A stretch of DNA of 64,000 nt, from NCBI GenBank assembly GCA_017509605.1, contig JAFWPH010000012.1, positions 62,001 through 126,000 of the forward strand, in the 5' to 3' direction. The notes under the pieces were generated by a model that ran no database searches, was not told the DNA's origin, and saw only the letters and a list, made by a program, of their open reading frames with translations. Made by a program: the position numbers and the translations under genes. Origin of the DNA: Bacteroidaceae bacterium (lineage in GTDB: Bacteria > Bacteroidota > Bacteroidia > Bacteroidales > Bacteroidaceae). Below, piece by piece: positions 7,185-30,676 of the stretch. Each line of letters opens with the position of its first letter. The first letter of the stretch is position 1.

Positions 7185-10100
7185 ATGATTAAAAATAACT
7201 TTCTCATCTGCTTTGCTCTATTGATAGCATCAGGAATAAAGTTGCAAACTACGGCAAACGCTCAGAATTTGAAAGCCTTGCAGTTTACAACAACCCAGAA
7301 GGACGTGTGGACCATCAAGAAGGCGGATGTCGGCAGAAAAGTGATAGGAAAGCCACAGGCTGTGTTCTCAACCTCTGATGTGACAAGCACTTTCCAGGCT
7401 TGGGGTACTTGTTTCAACGAACTCGACTGGTATGCCATCCAACGGTTGTCTCCTACAGCTCAAACGGAATACTATAAGCGAATGTTTGCTCCTACCGGCG
7501 ACCTGCGTTTCTCCTTGGGAAGAATCCCTGTAGGTGCCAGCGACTATGCCGGGCCAGAAGACTTCTATGACCCTTCGGTGTTTCACCAGCGTAACGAACC
7601 CATCAACTTGGAGGAGTCCTGGTACAGCTGTGACGAAATGCCAGAGGGAGAAACAGACTTCGCCATGGAGCATTTCACTATCGAACGAGACAAGAAGCAC
7701 ATCATCCCTTTCATCAAAAAAGCGCAGGAGCAAAACCCGAATATGACGTTCTGGTGCTCACCATGGAGCCCCCCTCAGTGGATGAAGAAAAGTCATCATT
7801 ATTCCAACCGTGCAGGTTATAGCAACGGACTGGATGTGACTTACCCCTCATACACATCTACTCAGTTCATCATGGAACCAGACTACCTCAATGCTCATGC
7901 GCTGTATTTCAGCAAGTTCATAACGGCTTATGGCGAGGAGGGCATTCCCATCACTGGTATGTGCTATCAGAACGAGGCATACACTTGCAATTATTACCCC
8001 AACACCTCCTGGGAAGCAAAGAGTACTGCCATATTCAACGGTGATTATCTCATACCATATTTGCGGAAACATCATCCTGGGGTGAAAATATGGCTTGGCA
8101 CCATGAATACGAACCACGTGGATGACGTGTTTGAAGTGATTCTCAACTACCGTTCCCAAAGCACTGATCCAGATTTCAACGGAAAAAAGTTGTACGAACT
8201 GTTCGACGGCATCGGATTCCAGTGGGAAGGGCGTGAGGCCATTGCCGAGATGCGTAAACGCTATCCCGACATGGAATTCATCCAGACAGAAAGCGAGTGT
8301 GGCAACGGGACGTTCGATTGGGGGGCCGGGGCACATACTTTCGAATTGATACACCATTATCTCAATAACGGCTGTGTCACCTATACCAATTGGAATTCAA
8401 TCCTTGGCGGAAACGGCCGAGGTCCATTCATGAACTGGTGGCAGAATGGACTTCTTCATCTCGACATCAACAAACGTGTGGCTTATTACACGCCCGAATT
8501 CTATGCCTATAAGCATTATAGCCATTTCATCGGTGACGGAACGAAAATATTACACAAGAGCAGCGGACAGCCATTGGTTCTGGCTGCACAACGACCCGAT
8601 GGTACCATCGTCGTAGTCGTAGGAAATGAAAACGACAAGGAGAGGACGCTCACATTCTCTGTGGACGACAAGTATATGAGCGTCAGGGTTCCAGCAAACT
8701 CCTTCAACACTTTTGTGATAGCGGACGAAGCTACTATCGAAAATCTGGCCGCCGAAGAAGGTTATGGGGAGACTGCTGAGGAGGTGACCGATTGCACGTC
8801 GTTGATTCAAAATCCGACATTCAACTCACTGAAAGGATGGACAAGGAAGAATACAGGTTCAGTGGATGCAACCGCCATGACAGTACTGAACCAAAGGGCC
8901 TACAACAGTTTTTCTACTGATTTCACTTCGATGGACATACATCAGGACATTTTGAACTTGCAGCCCGGTGAATATTATTTAACATGCAGGAGTGTATGTG
9001 GAGAAGGTCTGATTACCGACCAGCATGCATATATCATAGGGTATGACGACAACCCTTTGACTTCTGAAAGCCATGCCGAATCGGCAGTAAAGCAGAACGA
9101 TGCGTGGGACGCACTCAGTTGGGAATTACAGACCACCGGACGAATCACCATCACCGAGGGGCAGAACATACGTATCGGTTATACATCAACATCCAACGGA
9201 GGGCAAAGCGGGTGGTTTGCCGTTACCGATTTCCACCTGTACCGCATAGGGGAAGACGTGGAAGGCAAGGCTGCTGCTTCTGCAAAGTTGGAACAGGAAC
9301 TGAAGGAGGCGCAGGAAAAGTACGACGAAGTGGTTGATGAGGCCCAGACTTTAGTGGCTGACGAAGACAATAGATACGATACCAAGGCCAAGGCAATATT
9401 GGCGGCACTGATTGCCAGGCAGTCGGATGTCATTCCATTGGTGAACGAACCTGTTATGTTCGACGATTTGATAAACGAATTGCGCGACGCCATGGAGCAG
9501 GTGAAGGCTTCGGCCAACTTCAGCTTATTCAAGGGAGAAAAACCCGTAGCCGGACAAACCTACTATCTTTACAACATAGGACAACACAAGTTTGTGAACA
9601 TCGGTTACGGGTCATACGGCACGCAGATGGGACTCGACGATGGGGGACTGGAATTCACTCTTGAGGCATCAGGCAACGGCTACTGTCTGAAGACATCAAC
9701 CATCGGCAGTGACACCTACTATGGTTGGCTCGATGTCAATCCACTGAGCAACGTTACACTTCCCAGTGGCATCGATGCGAAATATTATCTCAACAGCACA
9801 ACCAGCAAGGAACGTCTTACATTCACTGCGGTAGCAATTCCAGGGGTGGACAATGTCTATACCATCCGTTTCCCATCCAACGGCAACAAATATCTGACAT
9901 ACGACACGGCATACCCCACCGTCGTGTGGCTCAGCAGCGACGGAACCAACAACAACTCATGCTGGCAATTCGTCAAAAAGACGGAACGCATCAACGCATT
10001 GACCGACAAGAACGGCGGGGATGCCTCGTTCATGATCGTAAACTCTCATTTCTATCATGATTACAATGCTGGATGGAAAGGATTTACTTACAAAGGTCAA

Positions 10101-10748
10101 ACCGGAAACAACAGCTATAACTGGGATTACGGCAATCATGTAGAAGGCAGCGACTGGCGTGGGATGTTTCATCAACTCAGCACCAAGTTCAACCTTTCAC
10201 AAAGCATCGAAGGACTTCCAGCAGGAAACTATACCCTCTCATGTGAGGGATTCTACAAACCAATGAGTGATAACGACTACACTACAGTGAATGCATATCT
10301 CTTTATCGACAGCCATGAAAAGGCTATCCAACACGCACACAACGGTGAGGTGTCCAACAGGTTTTTTCCTGGCGACACATCCTTGGAAAACAGCTACACC
10401 ATAGGCAACCGCACTTACTATCAGCCCCAATGGTATAAGACTGATGCTGTGATACGTTATTTCGATAAAGGCATTTACCATAATGAACTGACCTTCGACT
10501 ACACTGGGCAATCTCCAATGACGATAGGCGTGAAAGACGAAATCGGGGAGCAAGGCTCATGGAGTGAAATCACAGGTTTCAGGCTTATCTATAACGGCAA
10601 TAACGAATCCAATTCCATTCCAACGATTATTCCGTTTAATTGTTCCACAAGATTCTATACGCTTGACGGCCGTCAAGTAAGTGCTCCTCAACGAGGTGTT
10701 TACATCGTTGTCACATCGGAGGGAATAGTGAAAAAAGTTTATCGTTGA
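7185..10748 (+). CDS. Secreted GH30-family glycoside hydrolase with C-terminal modules
   Basis: A 1187-aa exported glycosidase. A signal peptide (residues ~1-27) precedes a GH30 TIM barrel plus beta domain (~30-515). The likely acid/base is Glu264 in CYQNEAY and the nucleophile Glu369 in QTESECG; WCSPWSPPQWMK is a typical GH30 segment. Known GH30 activities include beta-glucosidase, beta-glucosylceramidase, beta-1,6-glucanase and xylanase; the subfamily cannot be fixed here. Residues ~525-690 and ~960-1130 look like jelly-roll carbohydrate-binding regions, and a helical FIVAR-like stretch lies at ~700-780. The C-terminus (FYTLDGRQV...GVYIV) resembles the tail that directs Bacteroidetes proteins to the type IX secretion system. 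It is probably surface-attached and acts on plant or fungal polysaccharide. Confidence 0.85.
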   Translation: MIKNNFLICFALLIASGIKLQTTANAQNLKALQFTTTQKDVWTIKKADVGRKVIGKPQAVFSTSDVTSTFQAWGTCFNELDWYAIQRLSPTAQTEYYKRMFAPTGDLRFSLGRIPVGASDYAGPEDFYDPSVFHQRNEPINLEESWYSCDEMPEGETDFAMEHFTIERDKKHIIPFIKKAQEQNPNMTFWCSPWSPPQWMKKSHHYSNRAGYSNGLDVTYPSYTSTQFIMEPDYLNAHALYFSKFITAYGEEGIPITGMCYQNEAYTCNYYPNTSWEAKSTAIFNGDYLIPYLRKHHPGVKIWLGTMNTNHVDDVFEVILNYRSQSTDPDFNGKKLYELFDGIGFQWEGREAIAEMRKRYPDMEFIQTESECGNGTFDWGAGAHTFELIHHYLNNGCVTYTNWNSILGGNGRGPFMNWWQNGLLHLDINKRVAYYTPEFYAYKHYSHFIGDGTKILHKSSGQPLVLAAQRPDGTIVVVVGNENDKERTLTFSVDDKYMSVRVPANSFNTFVIADEATIENLAAEEGYGETAEEVTDCTSLIQNPTFNSLKGWTRKNTGSVDATAMTVLNQRAYNSFSTDFTSMDIHQDILNLQPGEYYLTCRSVCGEGLITDQHAYIIGYDDNPLTSESHAESAVKQNDAWDALSWELQTTGRITITEGQNIRIGYTSTSNGGQSGWFAVTDFHLYRIGEDVEGKAAASAKLEQELKEAQEKYDEVVDEAQTLVADEDNRYDTKAKAILAALIARQSDVIPLVNEPVMFDDLINELRDAMEQVKASANFSLFKGEKPVAGQTYYLYNIGQHKFVNIGYGSYGTQMGLDDGGLEFTLEASGNGYCLKTSTIGSDTYYGWLDVNPLSNVTLPSGIDAKYYLNSTTSKERLTFTAVAIPGVDNVYTIRFPSNGNKYLTYDTAYPTVVWLSSDGTNNNSCWQFVKKTERINALTDKNGGDASFMIVNSHFYHDYNAGWKGFTYKGQTGNNSYNWDYGNHVEGSDWRGMFHQLSTKFNLSQSIEGLPAGNYTLSCEGFYKPMSDNDYTTVNAYLFIDSHEKAIQHAHNGEVSNRFFPGDTSLENSYTIGNRTYYQPQWYKTDAVIRYFDKGIYHNELTFDYTGQSPMTIGVKDEIGEQGSWSEITGFRLIYNGNNESNSIPTIIPFNCSTRFYTLDGRQVSAPQRGVYIVVTSEGIVKKVYR

Positions 10749-25570: not shown

Positions 25571-27094
25571 CTAAAGACTAATCTTATTGATTTCGCCCAG
25601 AGCGTCCTCGCTCTTATCGATGGCAGAGAGGACATCGAAGACACGGTCGCTCCAACCTGCGATGAGATACACATCGGGTTCTACGATGCGCAGAGGGAGC
25701 TGTCCGTAGCCAGCGAGGTCGAAGAGATAGAGCTTGGCATCGGGCACCATCTGCTTGTAGCGGTGCCAGGAGTTCTCAAAGGTCTTATCACGCCCCGTGC
25801 TGTCCCACATCTGCATATCGGTGAACATCATCACCTTGTCCATCTCCTTCTTCTGGCTGATGAGCCAGTCGATGACCTTATAACCATTAGTGCTGAAACC
25901 TACGGTGTTAGCCAGCCTCTCCAACTGGCGGGTAGCCATCAGGATGTTGTCGTTGGGCATATTCACCACTCTCCAGGTGTCGCCAAATATTCCAGCTACG
26001 ACCTGCTTGCAGCGGTTGCGGAGCAACATCGACAGCAAGAGACCTATATCAAAGTGACGAACAGTGCTCTTCAGGCTTATAGATGACCACATTGAACCGC
26101 TGACATCGGAAGCCAGCAAGACGCGTGTGTTCTCGTCGAAGCCTTCAATGTTGCTTGCAGAGGCCTTGACGGCGGCCTCCAAGGCATTCATCAGTGTTGC
26201 GGTGTGGCCGGAATCCACCTTCTCAATCTCGCGGTAGGCAGACAGATAGCGGAAGGGCAACTGCTTGGACTTCGCCACCTGCTGGGCATCAGCAAGGCGG
26301 TTGGCCACCTTCTGCATCTCGAGGAGGGAGATATCGGCCTGGAGCATATTTCGCAGGTTGCGCATCAGAGCCATATAACCCATCTTGCCGCTGTTCACCA
26401 GCTCTTCCCACTTCTGGCGGAAAGCCTCTCTCTTCAGCTCGTCGGAGTCGAACTGCTGCTGACCGAGTGCAGAGAGTTCTGTTTCCCAAGTATAAGGAGT
26501 CTCCAACTGGCCGTTCGCAATCTTGTCGAAAAGCGCCTGCTGCTCTTCGTCCTTGGCCTTGGGGTGAACGAGGAACAATGCGTCGCGGAGCTTCACCTCG
26601 AGATTATCGCGGTCGTACTTGGCGAACTGGTATTCGTCAAATCGGTTGAATGCACGCTGCAAACCGTTCTGAATCTGGCGCGACAACTTGCCCAGCTTCT
26701 TGCGTGGGTCGGTGGAAGGGTTGCGCCACTGGTAGCACATCAGCAACTCCATAATCTCGTCGGCACGAAGCACTGTCTTCTCCACGGCACGGGCCACAAG
26801 GTCGTCGCCATTGTGTACCTTTGCCAGTTCAACCAGGAGGAGCAGTGGAACGCTGCGGAGATTCATCACTGTGCGTGTATATACTGCGAGACGTGCCACA
26901 AACTCTGGAGACACCTTCTTGACAAGCTTTGCAATACGGTTGGTACGCTCGTCCTGCTTCTCGTAGAAAGTATCGCTGAGCGATGCAGTCACTACGGCAG
27001 AGTAGAGTTCCAACTCAGGGGTCATCGCGTAAGCGTTGGCGCCCTCGTAGTTCTTCTCGGTATTCTGTTCTCTCAACATAGAATTGTACTTCAT
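25571..27094 (-). CDS. TROVE domain protein, bacterial Ro60 (Rsr) family
   Basis: A 507-aa Ro60-type RNA-binding protein. The TROVE helical-repeat domain (~15-315) begins with YAMTPELELYSAVV and includes the pattern of paired helices around LRSVPLLLLVELAK. A von Willebrand A domain (~320-500) has the MIDAS motif DVSGSMWSS (Asp330, Ser332, Ser334). Known: Ro60 forms a ring that binds misfolded RNAs in its cavity and Y RNAs on its surface; in bacteria it can tether a Y RNA to an exonuclease. Here the gene follows, on the same strand, about 0.7 kb of tRNA-like sequence that could supply its Y RNAs. The divergent genes encode RNA-end processing enzymes. No signal peptide; cytoplasmic. Confidence 0.93.
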   Translation of the reverse strand: MKYNSMLREQNTEKNYEGANAYAMTPELELYSAVVTASLSDTFYEKQDERTNRIAKLVKKVSPEFVARLAVYTRTVMNLRSVPLLLLVELAKVHNGDDLVARAVEKTVLRADEIMELLMCYQWRNPSTDPRKKLGKLSRQIQNGLQRAFNRFDEYQFAKYDRDNLEVKLRDALFLVHPKAKDEEQQALFDKIANGQLETPYTWETELSALGQQQFDSDELKREAFRQKWEELVNSGKMGYMALMRNLRNMLQADISLLEMQKVANRLADAQQVAKSKQLPFRYLSAYREIEKVDSGHTATLMNALEAAVKASASNIEGFDENTRVLLASDVSGSMWSSISLKSTVRHFDIGLLLSMLLRNRCKQVVAGIFGDTWRVVNMPNDNILMATRQLERLANTVGFSTNGYKVIDWLISQKKEMDKVMMFTDMQMWDSTGRDKTFENSWHRYKQMVPDAKLYLFDLAGYGQLPLRIVEPDVYLIAGWSDRVFDVLSAIDKSEDALGEINKISL

Positions 27095-27159
27095 TTTCGT
27101 TACTTGTTAAATTAATTAGTTATTCATCATGTACATAAAAGGAAACGGTGCGACAGGCA

Positions 27160-27230
27160 TAGAGAGTCATGAATCCCTCGATTATCAGTCGAGTGCTTTC
27201 TGACGTAGCTAATGAAGTATCTCTCTACTA
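27160..27230 (-). ncRNA. Ile(GAT)-like tRNA remnant (module 5)
   Basis: An exact anticodon arm, CTCGA-CTGATAA-TCGAG (27177-27193, anticodon GAT), with a short D-arm-like GCT/AGC hairpin before it and an acceptor-like TAGAGAG/CTCTCTA stem. A normal T-arm is missing. Confidence 0.5.
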
Positions 27231-27235
27231 CGGCA
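27213..27235 (-). repeat. Y-RNA-like motif copy 5 (nearest the Ro60 gene)
   Basis: TGCCGTAG, spacer, TACTTCA; the only copy ending in A. Part of its spacer (CTCTCTA on the plus strand, 27221-27227) can pair with 27160-27166, forming a 7-bp acceptor-like stem around the Ile-like module. Confidence 0.65.
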
Positions 27236-27332
27236 ACCGTTTTTGGTAAGCAGAAGCGACAGGCGGGCAACAGGCGGGAGTCTCGCAAAGATTTTTGAGA
27301 AAAACCAGTAAAAACCCTCCCTCATGGTGGAG

Positions 27333-27356
27333 CGAAGTATCTGTCATCCTACGGCA
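27333..27356 (-). repeat. Y-RNA-like motif copy 4
   Basis: TGCCGTAG, 9-base spacer, TACTTCG. Followed on the minus strand by a short CTCC/GGAG stem and GGGTTTTT (27310-27330), which could act as a weak terminator or attenuator before the Ro60 gene. Confidence 0.65.
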
Positions 27357-27371
27357 TTCTGCGTTTTTTTG

Positions 27372-27444
27372 TTGCGGGGGCAGGACTCGAACCTGCGTCC
27401 TCAAGCTTATGAAACTTGCAAGCTACCAACTGCTCCACTCCGCT
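27372..27444 (-). ncRNA. Initiator-Met(CAT)-like tRNA mimic inside the array
   Basis: A 73-nt sequence in normal tRNA order: acceptor, D-arm GAGC-AGTTGGTA-GCTT, anticodon arm CAAGT-TTCATAA-GCTTG (anticodon CAT), T-arm GCAGG-TTCGAGT-CCTGC. Position 1 does not pair with 72, as in bacterial initiators. However, the three G-C pairs of an initiator anticodon stem are absent, acceptor pair 6-67 is A x C, and the 3' end reads ACA rather than CCA. It may be scored as a tRNA by software, but it looks like a mimic derived from tRNA-fMet. Confidence 0.6.
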
Positions 27445-27481
27445 GTATGAAGCAAGGCTACTAGCGAAAAGACACAGTCAT

Positions 27482-27533
27482 TGCTCTGCCCACTGAGCTA
27501 CATGGACGAATCCACGGCTGGATTTGAACCAGC
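27482..27533 (-). ncRNA. Circularly permuted tRNA-like module with UUCG-capped acceptor stem (module 3)
   Basis: Minus-strand order: T-arm (GCTGG/CCAGC with TTCAAAT loop), acceptor 3' strand CGTGGAT, then TC, then acceptor 5' strand GTCCATG, T8-A9, and a canonical D-arm (GCTC/GAGC). The seven acceptor pairs close on a UUCG loop, so the normal 5' and 3' ends of a tRNA are joined and there is no CCA end to charge. An anticodon-arm-like segment (CTCTTAA loop, 27535-27551) precedes the T-arm. Confidence 0.7.
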
Positions 27534-27551
27534 GACCCCTGGCTTAAGAGG

Positions 27552-27574
27552 CGAAGTAAGTCTTATCTACGGCA
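27552..27574 (-). repeat. Y-RNA-like motif copy 3
   Basis: TGCCGTAG, 8-base spacer, TACTTCG. The spacer bases ATAAGA pair with TCTTAT just upstream, giving a hairpin with the conserved GCCGTAG in its loop. Confidence 0.65.
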
Positions 27575-27620
27575 CTTGCTTATAAGATGTGAGGCGACAA
27601 GCGGTGAGGGTTCTAAACTA

Positions 27621-27682
27621 CACCAGCGAACTGGTGGCAGGAATCGAACCTGCACTTTCGAATCTGCTATCCGACGTTCAAC
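27621..27682 (-). ncRNA. tRNA-like module with UUCG-capped acceptor stem (module 2)
   Basis: Minus-strand order: a D-arm-like hairpin (27666-27682), a short TTCG-containing segment where the anticodon arm would be, a perfect T-arm GCAGG/CCTGC with TTCGATT loop (27637-27653), then CACCAG-TTCG-CTGGTG (27621-27636). The joined acceptor cannot be aminoacylated. Confidence 0.65.
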
Positions 27683-27687
27683 CATTA

Positions 27688-27710
27688 CGAAGTATTCCTC
27701 TCCTACGGCA
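27688..27710 (-). repeat. Y-RNA-like motif copy 2
   Basis: TGCCGTAG, 8-base spacer, TACTTCG; preceded on the minus strand by a CACCTTTTT/AAAAAAGTG hairpin. Confidence 0.65.
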
Positions 27711-27819
27711 CTCACTTTTTTATTAAAAAGGTGGGGTGCAACGGTCGAAAGCGGACTTTTGGGAAAACCCAACGTTGGTTATCAGGAACTGAATCCTGCA
27801 CCTTCTACGGTTTATCAAA

Positions 27820-27842
27820 CGAAGTAACCCCTCACTACGGCA
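27820..27842 (-). repeat. Y-RNA-like motif copy 1 (start of the array)
   Basis: TGCCGTAG, 8-base spacer, TACTTCG. Spacer bases GGGGT can pair with ACCCC near the end of the module (about 27733-27737). Confidence 0.65.
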
Positions 27843-27863
27843 ACCACACCTAAATTATACATC

Positions 27864-28112: not shown

Positions 28113-28131
28113 TACGCAATGTATTTGCGTA
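28113..28131. promoter_or_regulatory. Operator 1: TACGCAA-N5-TTGCGTA
   Basis: A perfect 7-bp inverted repeat with a 5-base spacer, placed over the expected -33 region of the leftward promoter. Confidence 0.6.
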
Positions 28132-28170
28132 AATCAAAAAATTTTCAGAAAAAGGTGAAAAAAACGACTT

Positions 28171-28189
28171 TACGCAAATAGGTTGCATA
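28171..28189. promoter_or_regulatory. Operator 2: TACGCAA-N5-TTGCATA
   Basis: Same 7-5-7 layout as operator 1 with one mismatch in the right arm, 58 bp away, placed over the expected -33 region of the rightward promoter. Confidence 0.6.
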
Positions 28190-28236: not shown

Positions 28237-29427
28237 ATGAACAATTTTGATGTTATCCGTCAGGACGGCAGGCTCCTTTACGAGTATATCCGGGGAAGTC
28301 ACCTCTACGGACTCAACAATGAGGACAGCGACATCGACACCAGCGGTGTCTATGTCTGCACACGTGACGAACTGTTCAGCTGCTTCGGCTACTCGCCCCA
28401 GGTGACTGACAGCCGCCACGACAACACATGGTATGAGATAGGAGAACTGGTCCGTCTGCTTCTGAAATCCAACCCCACGGTGCTGGAAAGCCTCTTTGTG
28501 CCGAGGGACAAAGTAATCGGTGACATTCATCCCATCATGCAGATGGTCATCGACCAACGAGACCAGTTCATCAGCAAGCAGTGCTTCAATCCTTTCTTCG
28601 GCTATGCCAAGTCGCAGATAGAGAAGGCATGGGGACTGAACAAGAAGATTGTCAATCCTGTGACCGAACGCCTGACGCCATACGATTTTATCTATACTTT
28701 CAAGGGGCAGGGTAGCACGAAGTTCAGCGACTGGCTCGACAATCGCAGTATGCATCAGGAGTTCTGCGGTCTTGTCAACGTGCCCAACATGCACGACATC
28801 TATGGCGTGTATTATGACTTTGGAGCGCACACCGCCGCTTATCCGGACTGGAGAGAAGACGGGCGGTTTCTATCTTTCTGCCAAGAATATTATGGAGACA
28901 CGGAAAAGGTCGCTGTCATCGAAAGACTGTCAAAGATGGTGCCGATAGGCTATCGTGGTGTCATCAAGAAGGATGCCAAGGCCGATGAGATACGACTCTC
29001 CTCCATTGACGACAAGCACACTCGTCCGATGTGCTTCATCTCCTACAACCAAAGTGGATACTCCATGCATTGCCGTCAATATGCGGAATACCAGATATGG
29101 GTGAGCAACCGCAACCCGAAACGCTATGAGTCGAACCTTGACAAGAACTACGACTCGAAGAACATGATGCACTGCTTCCGGCTGATGCACATGGCAGCGG
29201 AGATAGCGGAGGGTAAGGGAGTGATACTGCAACGCACCGAGGACAGGCAGTTCCTGATGGATGTGCGCAACCACAAGTTCGAATACGAGGAAATCATCGA
29301 GATGCTGGAACGTGATAAGGAGCGGATGAACCATCTGATGGAACAGTCCACCATCCGTGAGAAGATTGACACGGACTTTGTCAATAACCTGATGATAGAG
29401 ATTCGGAAACAACAATTCAGAATGTAA
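28237..29427 (+). CDS. RlaP-type nucleotidyltransferase (DNA polymerase beta superfamily), predicted RNA repair
   Basis: A 396-aa protein whose N-terminus carries the polymerase-beta-type nucleotidyltransferase signature: Gly20-Ser21 in RGSHLYG and Ser31-Asp32-x-Asp34 in EDSDID. The rest (~60-390) is mostly helical and matches the overall form of the RlaP family (RNA repair pathway DNA polymerase beta family). Known: members were proposed from gene neighbourhoods to modify RNA ends; a firm reaction is not established to my knowledge. It is the first gene of a tight three-gene operon (1-bp gap to the kinase) divergent from the Ro60 gene and its tRNA-like array. A decayed copy of its first codons lies at 30682. 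Confidence 0.82.
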   Translation: MNNFDVIRQDGRLLYEYIRGSHLYGLNNEDSDIDTSGVYVCTRDELFSCFGYSPQVTDSRHDNTWYEIGELVRLLLKSNPTVLESLFVPRDKVIGDIHPIMQMVIDQRDQFISKQCFNPFFGYAKSQIEKAWGLNKKIVNPVTERLTPYDFIYTFKGQGSTKFSDWLDNRSMHQEFCGLVNVPNMHDIYGVYYDFGAHTAAYPDWREDGRFLSFCQEYYGDTEKVAVIERLSKMVPIGYRGVIKKDAKADEIRLSSIDDKHTRPMCFISYNQSGYSMHCRQYAEYQIWVSNRNPKRYESNLDKNYDSKNMMHCFRLMHMAAEIAEGKGVILQRTEDRQFLMDVRNHKFEYEEIIEMLERDKERMNHLMEQSTIREKIDTDFVNNLMIEIRKQQFRM

Positions 29428-29428
29428 T

Positions 29429-29899
29429 ATGAAGAAACTTCCATTTGACATTAGGCAGACCTGTCAGATTATCGTGTTCATCGGCATTCAAGCCAGTGGA
29501 AAAACCACCTTCTTCAAGCAATGGTTGGCTCCTCATGGTTATGTCCATATCAATCTTGACACTCTACGCACACGTCCCAGGGAATCGCTGGCCATCCAGG
29601 AGTGTTATGACCGTGAACAGTCGTTCGTCGTCGACAACACCAATCCTGAGAAAACCGATAGGGAGAGGTACATTCAAGATGCCAAGGCGCATGGCTATGA
29701 GGTGATAGGCATTTTCTTTCAGAGTATAGTGAGAGACTGCATTGTCAGGAATGATATGAGAGAGAAAAAAGTCCCCGTGAAGGCAATCCCCTGTACACAA
29801 AACAAATTACAGCTGCCCAACTATGCTGAAGGATTTGATAAACTCTATTTCGTGAGAATAAAGGATATTGATTTTTTAATATCAGAATGGAGGGAATGA
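29429..29899 (+). CDS. P-loop kinase, polynucleotide 5'-kinase-like
   Basis: A small (156 aa) P-loop phosphotransferase. Walker A is G19IQASGKTTF, an Asp/Asn pair follows in VVDNTNPEKTDRERYI (Asp69), and a lid-like Arg-rich stretch is at ~105-115 (VRDCIVRNDMREKK). This resembles the kinase half of T4-type polynucleotide kinase and bacterial AAA_33 proteins. In context it probably phosphorylates 5'-OH RNA ends, the step that would prepare substrates for a Thg1-type polymerase. It sits 1 bp after the nucleotidyltransferase and 3 bp before thg1. A small-molecule kinase cannot be excluded. Confidence 0.78.
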   Translation: MKKLPFDIRQTCQIIVFIGIQASGKTTFFKQWLAPHGYVHINLDTLRTRPRESLAIQECYDREQSFVVDNTNPEKTDRERYIQDAKAHGYEVIGIFFQSIVRDCIVRNDMREKKVPVKAIPCTQNKLQLPNYAEGFDKLYFVRIKDIDFLISEWRE

Positions 29900-29902
29900 A
29901 AC

Positions 29903-30676
29903 ATGGACTTTAATACACTTGACAAACTGATGAGACGTTTCGAGCAGTCACTGGATAGGACCATGCTCAATGGGATTTATATGGTGGCTAGACTAGACGG
30001 GCATGGATTCACGCGCCTTACCAAGAAAGAATGGAATCTGGAGAAACCTTTTGACATTCGGTTTCGTGATGCCATGATAGAAACCACAAAGCATTTGATG
30101 GATTGTGGTTTTCGCATGATCTACGGCTACACGCAGAGTGACGAGATATCTCTTCTATTCCATTTGAAAGACAACACTTTTGGCAGAAAAGAGAGAAAAC
30201 TGTTGTCTATACTTGCAGCAGAAGCATCTGTGGCGTTTTCTATGCAGACAGGCAGAGCGGCTGTATTCGATAACAGACTTGTTCCTTTGCCAACAATGGA
30301 AAACGTGGTGGACTATTTCAGATGGCGGCAGGAGGATGCACACCGTAATTCCCTAAACTCACACTGTTATTGGAAATTACGCCAGGAAGGTGTCTCTGCA
30401 GATGAAGCACAAGAGCAACTAGCAGGAATCTCCAATAGTGAGAAGAATGAACTTTTGTTCTCGAGAGGCGTCAATTATACTGATTTACCTTCATGGCAGA
30501 AACGAGGCGTTGGTATGTTCTATCGTGATGATGATAGGCAAGGCTTCAATCCTATTACTAAAGAAACTACATCTTATAAAAGACGCATGCTATGTGTAGA
30601 GATGGAATTGCCGATAGGACAAGAGTATTCCAAATTGATTAACACGGTCGTTGAGGATTCAAATAAAGGGGATTAG
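29903..30676 (+). CDS. thg1: Thg1-like 3'-5' RNA polymerase (tRNA-His guanylyltransferase family)
   Basis: A 257-aa Thg1-family protein. The metal-binding carboxylates are visible in ARLDGHGFTRLTK (Asp32) and YTQSDEISLLF (Asp80, Glu81). The family's HRNSLNSHCYWKLR segment is present at ~150-163. Known: Thg1 and bacterial or archaeal Thg1-like proteins add nucleotides to the 5' end of tRNA in the 3'-5' direction; bacterial forms favour templated repair of 5'-truncated tRNAs. It is the last gene of the rlaP-kinase-thg1 operon, beside a Ro60 gene and tRNA-mimicking RNAs, so a role in tRNA 5'-end repair is inferred. Confidence 0.92.
   Translation: MDFNTLDKLMRRFEQSLDRTMLNGIYMVARLDGHGFTRLTKKEWNLEKPFDIRFRDAMIETTKHLMDCGFRMIYGYTQSDEISLLFHLKDNTFGRKERKLLSILAAEASVAFSMQTGRAAVFDNRLVPLPTMENVVDYFRWRQEDAHRNSLNSHCYWKLRQEGVSADEAQEQLAGISNSEKNELLFSRGVNYTDLPSWQKRGVGMFYRDDDRQGFNPITKETTSYKRRMLCVEMELPIGQEYSKLINTVVEDSNKGD

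Follow-up and report, generated by a model that had tools for sequence, protein, structure and literature searches.

In PMC8394870, bacterial Y RNAs are described as mimics of three tRNA arms (D, T and acceptor), and one of them tethers Ro60 to PNPase; the topology of YrlA, also described there, recurs in one module below. Here we analyzed 64,000 nt from a Bacteroidaceae bacterium (assembly GCA_017509605.1, contig JAFWPH010000012.1, positions 62,001 to 126,000; hereafter the window), in which a Ro60/TROVE gene (27094-25571) is directly preceded, on its own minus strand, by an array of five Y RNA units (27849-27143). An earlier note, made from the letters of the window, had reported two modules at 27482-27653 as tRNA mimics with joined acceptor strands. 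Both modules are real and their reading as mimics stands, but the feature is larger than that interval, and the note had overlooked the likely Ro60-binding stem and the five-unit array beside ro60. The array probably encodes Ro60-associated Y RNAs, in which tRNA-like payloads presented on this stem would serve as docking platforms.

A five-unit array with a common stem

The unit start TGCCGTAG-N-TACTTC occurs in 5 copies in the window (27842, 27710, 27574, 27356 and 27235), with 0 expected from shuffles, and no further copy was found outside the array across the 3.6-Mb genome assembly; the array is therefore not a product of chance. Every unit combines a common stem (UGCCGUAG-N7-UACUUC ... CGNCYGUYGC) with a payload that differs from unit to unit. 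The array and its Ro60 gene comprise the following features.

27731..27849, minus strand: Y RNA unit 1, stem and payload (unit motif, anatomy comparison)
27587..27717, minus strand: Y RNA unit 2, the second module of the earlier note, predicted complete tRNA opened in the D-loop (alignment A3, pair counts, model R2)
27450..27581, minus strand: Y RNA unit 3, the first module of the earlier note, predicted tRNA opened in the anticodon stem (Rfam YrlA, A2 pair counts, model R1)
27371..27444, minus strand: fMet-like gene within the array, resembling tRNA-Met(CAU) (ARAGORN; Rfam tRNA 53.8 bits; comparison with own-genome tRNAs)
27249..27363, minus strand: Y RNA unit 4, payload GGGAGGGUUUUUACUGGUUUUUCUCAAAAAUC...GCGAGACUCCC (unit motif, comparison of loci)
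27143..27242, minus strand: Y RNA unit 5, U8A9-like, D-arm and 5-bp anticodon arm (comparison of loci)
25571..27094, minus strand: Ro60 orthologue with TROVE and vWA_Ro60 domains (Pfam TROVE 3.1e-26, vWA_Ro60 1.2e-7)

By family search, 7 of 201 genomes encode Ro60. From a Ro60 profile search we kept the best 80 of 444 matching relatives as genome loci and added 40 viral-contig loci. A relaxed search near Ro60 in the window and 121 loci yielded 294 candidate units, of which 208, in 75 loci, passed the stem score. Discarding 8 nested units left 200 payloads, and 56 of these were parsed as permuted tRNA, including a few that are mis-phased (L032 -416, L035 -662, L074 -434, L082 +2267); both members of the near-identical locus pairs L107/L108 and L114/L115 are counted in the unit totals. 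Comparison of homologues gave the unit order H1, UGCCGUAG, H2 (7 nt), UACUUC, payload, H2', CGNCYGUYGC, H1'.

Of 185 exact 5' motifs, 103 are accompanied by a single strict 3' motif (91 distinct units); pairing of the stem was assessed on these, the 3' end not being chosen by pairing. Among the distinct units, H1 was paired at 81-96% per position versus 42-74% with swapped partners, and H2 at 69-92% versus 43-71%; the observed pairing sums were reached by 0 of 500 partner swaps, which establishes the stem at the level of sequence. A hairpin within TGCCGTAG-N7-TACTTC was rejected, as N7 pairs with the 3' half. Compared by eye with the Rfam YrlA consensus (ggCgaA / cUuGucGc), the units (GCCGUAG / CYUGUYGC) retain the conserved Ro60-contact motif with one A-to-U difference. 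Because of this match and the position beside ro60, the motif UGCCGUAG / CGNCYGUYGC is most likely the Ro60 binding site.

Permuted tRNAs and other payloads

Read on the minus strand, unit 3 (module 1) has CGTGGA-TTCG-TCCATG at 27516-27501 and unit 2 (module 2) has CACCAG-TTCG-CTGGTG at 27636-27621, so that the joined, UUCG-capped acceptor strands of the earlier note were found in both. Neither module has the free acceptor end and canonical arm order of a functional tRNA, the acceptor being sealed, which supports mimics that would not be charged; ARAGORN calls neither as a tRNA, and it calls some D-loop-opened modules of relatives tRNA-Leu or tRNA-Arg. The note had passed over anticodon parts in both modules; with these, each is a near-complete tRNA, and the opening lies at a different site in each.

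Module 1 runs through an anticodon loop (27550-27544), the T-arm (27533-27517), the capped acceptor (27516-27501), U8A9 and the D-arm (27498-27483), and the permuted order claimed for this module is thus borne out; this succession of T-arm, capped acceptor and D-arm is that of YrlA, so the permutation is genuine but its topology was already known. We aligned 28 such modules (A2), starting from 32 listed by a script (class B, caps longer than 9 nt, duplicates and a few loci having been dropped) and removing 4 more by hand (L035 -662, L070, L078 -196, L105 +2521). In this alignment 96.6% of cells were paired and both-side changes occurred at 15 of 20 pairs (0 of 500 shuffles), including 6 of 6 in the acceptor stem, with a covariation score of 0.555 versus 0.164 in shuffles and at most 0.102 for slid structures. 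RNAalifold returned the same helices except for a 2-bp mini-stem. Across the 200 payloads, the hairpin right after UACUUC had a 7-nt loop in 41 (shuffled mean 12.0, maximum 22), and among loop lengths 3 to 12 only 7 was enriched. U33 and a purine at position 37 are marks of anticodon loops; among 33 distinct 7-nt loops, 26 carried U33 and 32 a purine at 37, and positions 34-36 varied. In a related locus, L105, a permuted module at 10538-10635 combines a D-arm of Leu type with a long variable arm, as a mimic of a type II tRNA.

Module 2 begins with the D-arm 3' half (27679-27676), followed by the anticodon arm (27674-27658), the T-arm (27653-27637), the acceptor strands (27636-27631/27626-27621) around the cap, UA and the D-arm 5' half (27618-27615). 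Judged from its sequence, it is a complete tRNA: D, anticodon, T and acceptor arms are all there, and the opening lies in the D-loop, a permutation unlike that of module 1. The earlier note was right about the permutation, but only half of the D-arm follows the acceptor, the other half preceding the anticodon arm. Alignment A3 comprises 10 modules, 8 retrieved automatically and two, L035 -662 and window unit 2, added by hand, the latter because the script had assigned the 3' end of unit 3 to unit 2. The modules share the order D-arm 3' half, 5-bp anticodon arm, variable loop, T-arm, capped acceptor, UA, D-arm 5' half. In A3 96.5% of cells were paired, with both-side changes at 12 of 20 pairs (0 of 500 shuffles) and at 3 of 6 in the acceptor stem; the covariation proposed for the acceptor stems is thus present in homologues of both modules. 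The D-stem is the weakest helix (85% paired, both-side changes at 1 of 4 pairs). When each module was folded alone, the minimum free energy (MFE) structure kept the T-arm and the capped acceptor, and no better fold lacking the capped stems appeared.

The other payloads are more varied. Unit 5 has no T-arm; it carries a U8A9-like element, a D-arm and an anticodon arm of 5 bp whose loop, CUGAUAA, contains the anticodon GAU, and the Y stem takes the place of the acceptor. Many relatives have such D-arm and anticodon-arm units at the ro60 end of the array, a class that a simple rule detects in 27 of 57, only modestly above chance (shuffled mean 11.9, maximum 20). Unit 1 is less clear in class, showing an anticodon-like loop UUGAUAA after UACUUCG (read by eye) and a T-arm-like hairpin. 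The payload of unit 4 (27321-27276) is almost identical to that of the L014 unit at -222, with which it shares GGGAGGGUUUUUACUGGUUUUUCUCAAAAAUC; its U5...U5...A5 pattern could form a U.A-U triple helix, which we offer as an idea only.

Some relatives carry pieces of rRNA. Units of L079 (Prevotella sp. P3-122, 7603-7686) and L075 (7859-7939) have the 23S GTPase-associated centre as payload, with Rfam LSU scores of 73.6 and 63.9 bits and 23S alignment scores of 98.0 and 77.5, respectively, versus a shuffled maximum of 32.5. The L097 unit at -809 resembles 23S 1942-1989 (alignment score 43.0), as does the L106 unit at -1095 from ro60 (29.0, at the 99% level only), and the L077 unit at -185 resembles 16S 1081-1103 (41.5). 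Units L014 -570, L046 -545 and L088 -141 are like a permuted piece of the 16S region seen in L077, each scoring above its own 200 shuffles and not above the largest of all shuffles. We take the GTPase-associated centre to be 23S helices 42-44, 23S 1942-1989 to be helices 68-71 and the 16S segment to lie around helix 35. Payloads sharing an exact 11-mer with rRNA were not clearly enriched overall (14 versus 4-15 in shuffles), so that only the local alignments stand out, and BLAST of the Ro60 neighbourhoods against an rrn operon gave mostly cross-matches to spacer tRNAs, except in L075 and L079.

Linkage to Ro60 and gene neighbourhood

Covariance model R1 scored window module 1 at 84.8 bits and R2 scored module 2 at 89.3 bits, the window sequence being in the training set of each; own-genome tRNA loci reached at most 46.8 bits with R1 and 38.2 with R2. 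The tRNA control set for both models included four viral Ro60 loci (L117, L123, L126, L138), and its two high R1 scores, 79.4 and 70.1, came from L117 and L138, where they probably mark real modules. In the window and 81 loci, 59 R1 matches scored 50 bits or more; each lay on the strand of ro60 and no farther than about 1.7 kb from it (positions by eye).

We then searched 395 genomes of the phylum, in 65 of which R1 matches down to 50 bits were found. Matches of at least 62 bits occurred in 14 genomes, and Ro60 adjoins the match in 14 of 14, which shows the linkage. Twelve of these belong to the TROVE genomes, and in them match and Ro60 lie within 2 kb of each other; the other two, G420 and G546, encode beside the match a divergent Ro60 that the Pfam search for TROVE had missed (25-26% identity, E-values 1e-21 and 5e-26; Pfam vWA_Ro60 and TROVE). 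As these two were recognised only through the R1 match, the RNA predicted the protein. Conversely, 24 of the 25 TROVE genomes carry within about 3 kb either the unit motif (16) or, in 8 more, an R1 match scoring 50 bits or above, the sole exception being G478, with neither in that range.

The other side of the array is occupied by divergent genes and an inverted repeat.

28122..28180, no strand assigned: inverted repeat TATTTGCGTAAA...TTTACGCAAATA separating the array from the divergent repair genes
28237..29427, plus strand: RlaP-type nucleotidyltransferase, divergent from the array (Pfam RlaP 6.9e-21)
29429..29899, plus strand: AAA_33/kinase-like protein (Pfam AAA_33 8.9e-14)
29903..30676, plus strand: Thg1-like 3'-5' polymerase (Pfam Thg1 3.7e-31)

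The earlier note had proposed Thg1 as a partner of the mimics. As a general partner it was rejected: tblastn found Thg1 homologues in 5 of the 121 Ro60 loci, RlaP in 10 and the kinase in 3, all lower bounds as many loci are short. The inverted repeat gave 2 matches (a single site, both strands) and 0 in shuffles, a similar repeat stands upstream of the arrays of L007 and L008 (by eye), and it is a candidate operator. In L014 (G082) the divergent gene (1706-2728) encodes a WYL-domain protein, and the inverted repeat TATTTGCGTAAA lies between the divergent operons. A defence-system label from PADLOC was rejected, the only matches being WYL (and one Cas3c) in L014 and weak AAA matches in L210.

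GGG:CCC pairs in the anticodon stem are a mark expected of initiator tRNA; the fMet-like gene within the array lacks them, and its CCA is not encoded. Several relatives have tRNA-Met(CAU) genes upstream of Ro60, and in L014, L030, L037, L040 and L074 such a gene stands right before a unit of the type that follows the fMet-like tRNA of the window. In L060 (6402-7562) about 12 tRNA genes, several without an encoded CCA, form a run just downstream of Ro60 and the Y units. L107 and L108, IMG/VR contigs whose Ro60 is 87% identical to the query, carry a similar array; either the locus may travel on phages or these contigs may be of host origin.

Interpretation and comparison with known systems

The Ro60 ring is thought to hold damaged or misfolded RNAs. 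Ro60 would bind the two-part stem (H1, the motif UGCCGUAG / CGNCYGUYGC, H2), which presents a payload imitating a tRNA or part of one. Units 2 and 3 carry near-complete tRNAs with acceptor ends sealed by UUCG, opened to join the stem at the D-loop in unit 2 and within the anticodon stem in unit 3. Most likely, proteins specific for the tRNA elbow or the anticodon loop, and in relatives for sites of rRNA, would dock on the payload and be brought to, or held by, the ring, and the array would then extend the Ro60-Y RNA-PNPase machine in modular fashion, with putative protein partners.

Several results weigh against this reading. The YrlA covariance model (RF02553), whose use the earlier note had proposed, gave 34 bits (E-value 2.6e-5) on module 1 (27541-27475) and 19.9 bits on module 2 (27654-27610), both below the gathering cut-off of 69. 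The mini-stem closing the anticodon loop hardly covaries in A2, RNAalifold on A3 prefers another pairing and does not place the D-stem, and the anticodon loop of window unit 2 (UAGCAGA) lacks U33. Module fold energies are no better than those of shuffles (z -0.69 and -1.05), and in a fold of unit 3 whose end cut off the outer stem, the Y stem did not form; the structural support is therefore comparative, not thermodynamic. With R1, one own-genome tRNA place reached 50.8 bits in the whole-genome search, and many matches of 50 to about 62 bits fall in genomes that lack TROVE, where they resemble ordinary tRNAs in tandem.

This cross-reaction of R1 with tandem tRNAs, up to about 60 bits, is what speaks for decaying tandem tRNA genes that merely seem permuted where one 3' end abuts the next 5' end. 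We regard this as the least credible explanation, since the acceptor strands pair and covary across the junction, a conserved stem encloses each payload, and the own-genome tRNAs score far below the window modules with both models. Permuted tRNA genes, with the 3' half before the 5' half, are known in algae and archaea, and the complete arms and the U33- and purine-37-bearing anticodon loops would also suit genes spliced into working tRNAs, with the cap removed and the Y stem excised. This is very improbable: caps are often short 3-4-nt loops without CCA, the genome has an ordinary tRNA set (42 matches), the Y stem covaries in its own right, and other payloads are incomplete or rRNA-like.

The main alternative holds that the payloads are decoys, baits or competitive inhibitors for nucleases that cut tRNA or, in relatives, rRNA, held on Ro60 beside repair enzymes, with payload turnover between relatives reflecting an arms race. 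Varied anticodons, payload sets that differ between related loci, and RlaP, kinase and Thg1 genes adjoining the array in the window all favour it, and toxins that cut rRNA exist, to which rRNA payloads would be suited. In PMC7790460, the authors suggest that the tRNA-like domain of YrlA could competitively inhibit an anticodon nuclease. Repair genes, however, accompany only 13 of the 121 loci, and PADLOC has no family for Ro60, RlaP, the kinase or Thg1; we consider decoys possible but rather unlikely. The payloads would bind proteins that read tRNA or rRNA shapes, and as to function, adaptor or decoy, we infer an adaptor, favoured because the bacterial Y RNA of PMC8394870 links Ro60 to PNPase and because linkage to Ro60 is near universal and that to repair genes is not.

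More broadly, we give even chances to the idea that Bacteroidota Ro60 arrays are libraries imitating the translation machinery, with complete tRNAs in two circular permutations, lower halves of tRNAs with many anticodons and, in some genomes, pieces of 23S (GTPase-associated centre, helices 68-71) and of 16S (around helix 35, permuted in part) on one Ro60-binding stem, as baits or docking sites for proteins acting on tRNAs and ribosomes. The payloads found here make the role of Y RNA payloads testable, since each would predict its partner, for instance an enzyme or nuclease that reads the 23S GTPase-associated centre or an anticodon loop. The covariance models recover divergent Ro60 genes overlooked by protein-family search, and sealed permuted tRNAs could be ready-made tools to trap tRNA-binding proteins.

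Y RNAs with a tRNA-like domain beside Ro60 are already known, as is the topology of module 1; what appears to be new, within the literature searched, is the presence of rRNA payloads and of complete, doubly permuted tRNAs that have anticodon loops. No description of the anticodon loop, the second permutation, many-payload arrays or rRNA payloads was found in that literature, though other work on bacterial Y RNAs may describe some of these. The permuted tRNA genes of algae and archaea differ from the array modules, which are sealed, sit on a Ro60-type stem and have no sign of maturation into free tRNA. The Y stem of YrlA has similar motifs (5' GNCGWA, 3' UGUYGC), and YrlA shares with module 1 the T-arm, capped acceptor, U8A9, D-arm and helix 27-29/41-43, and both adjoin Ro60. 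Its tRNA-like domain, however, follows the stem with only CUA between, whereas the array RNAs insert an anticodon hairpin (7-nt loop, U33 and purine 37), and the window modules belong to a five-unit array with other payloads and score well below the YrlA cut-off. The Salmonella rsr-yrlBA-rtcBA RNA repair operon (PMC7790460) likewise places Ro60 and Y RNAs beside RNA repair genes, whereas the window has divergent RlaP, kinase and Thg1 genes and L014 a WYL-domain gene. RYPER, the Ro60-PNPase machine (PMC8394870), is alike in joining Ro60 (Rsr) to a modular Y RNA, the outer part of which serves to recruit a partner. The difference is that the array payloads include complete permuted tRNAs: beyond the imitation of D, T and acceptor arms described there, a Y-type stem here holds complete sealed tRNAs, each opened at one of two points, and in relatives also sites of rRNA.
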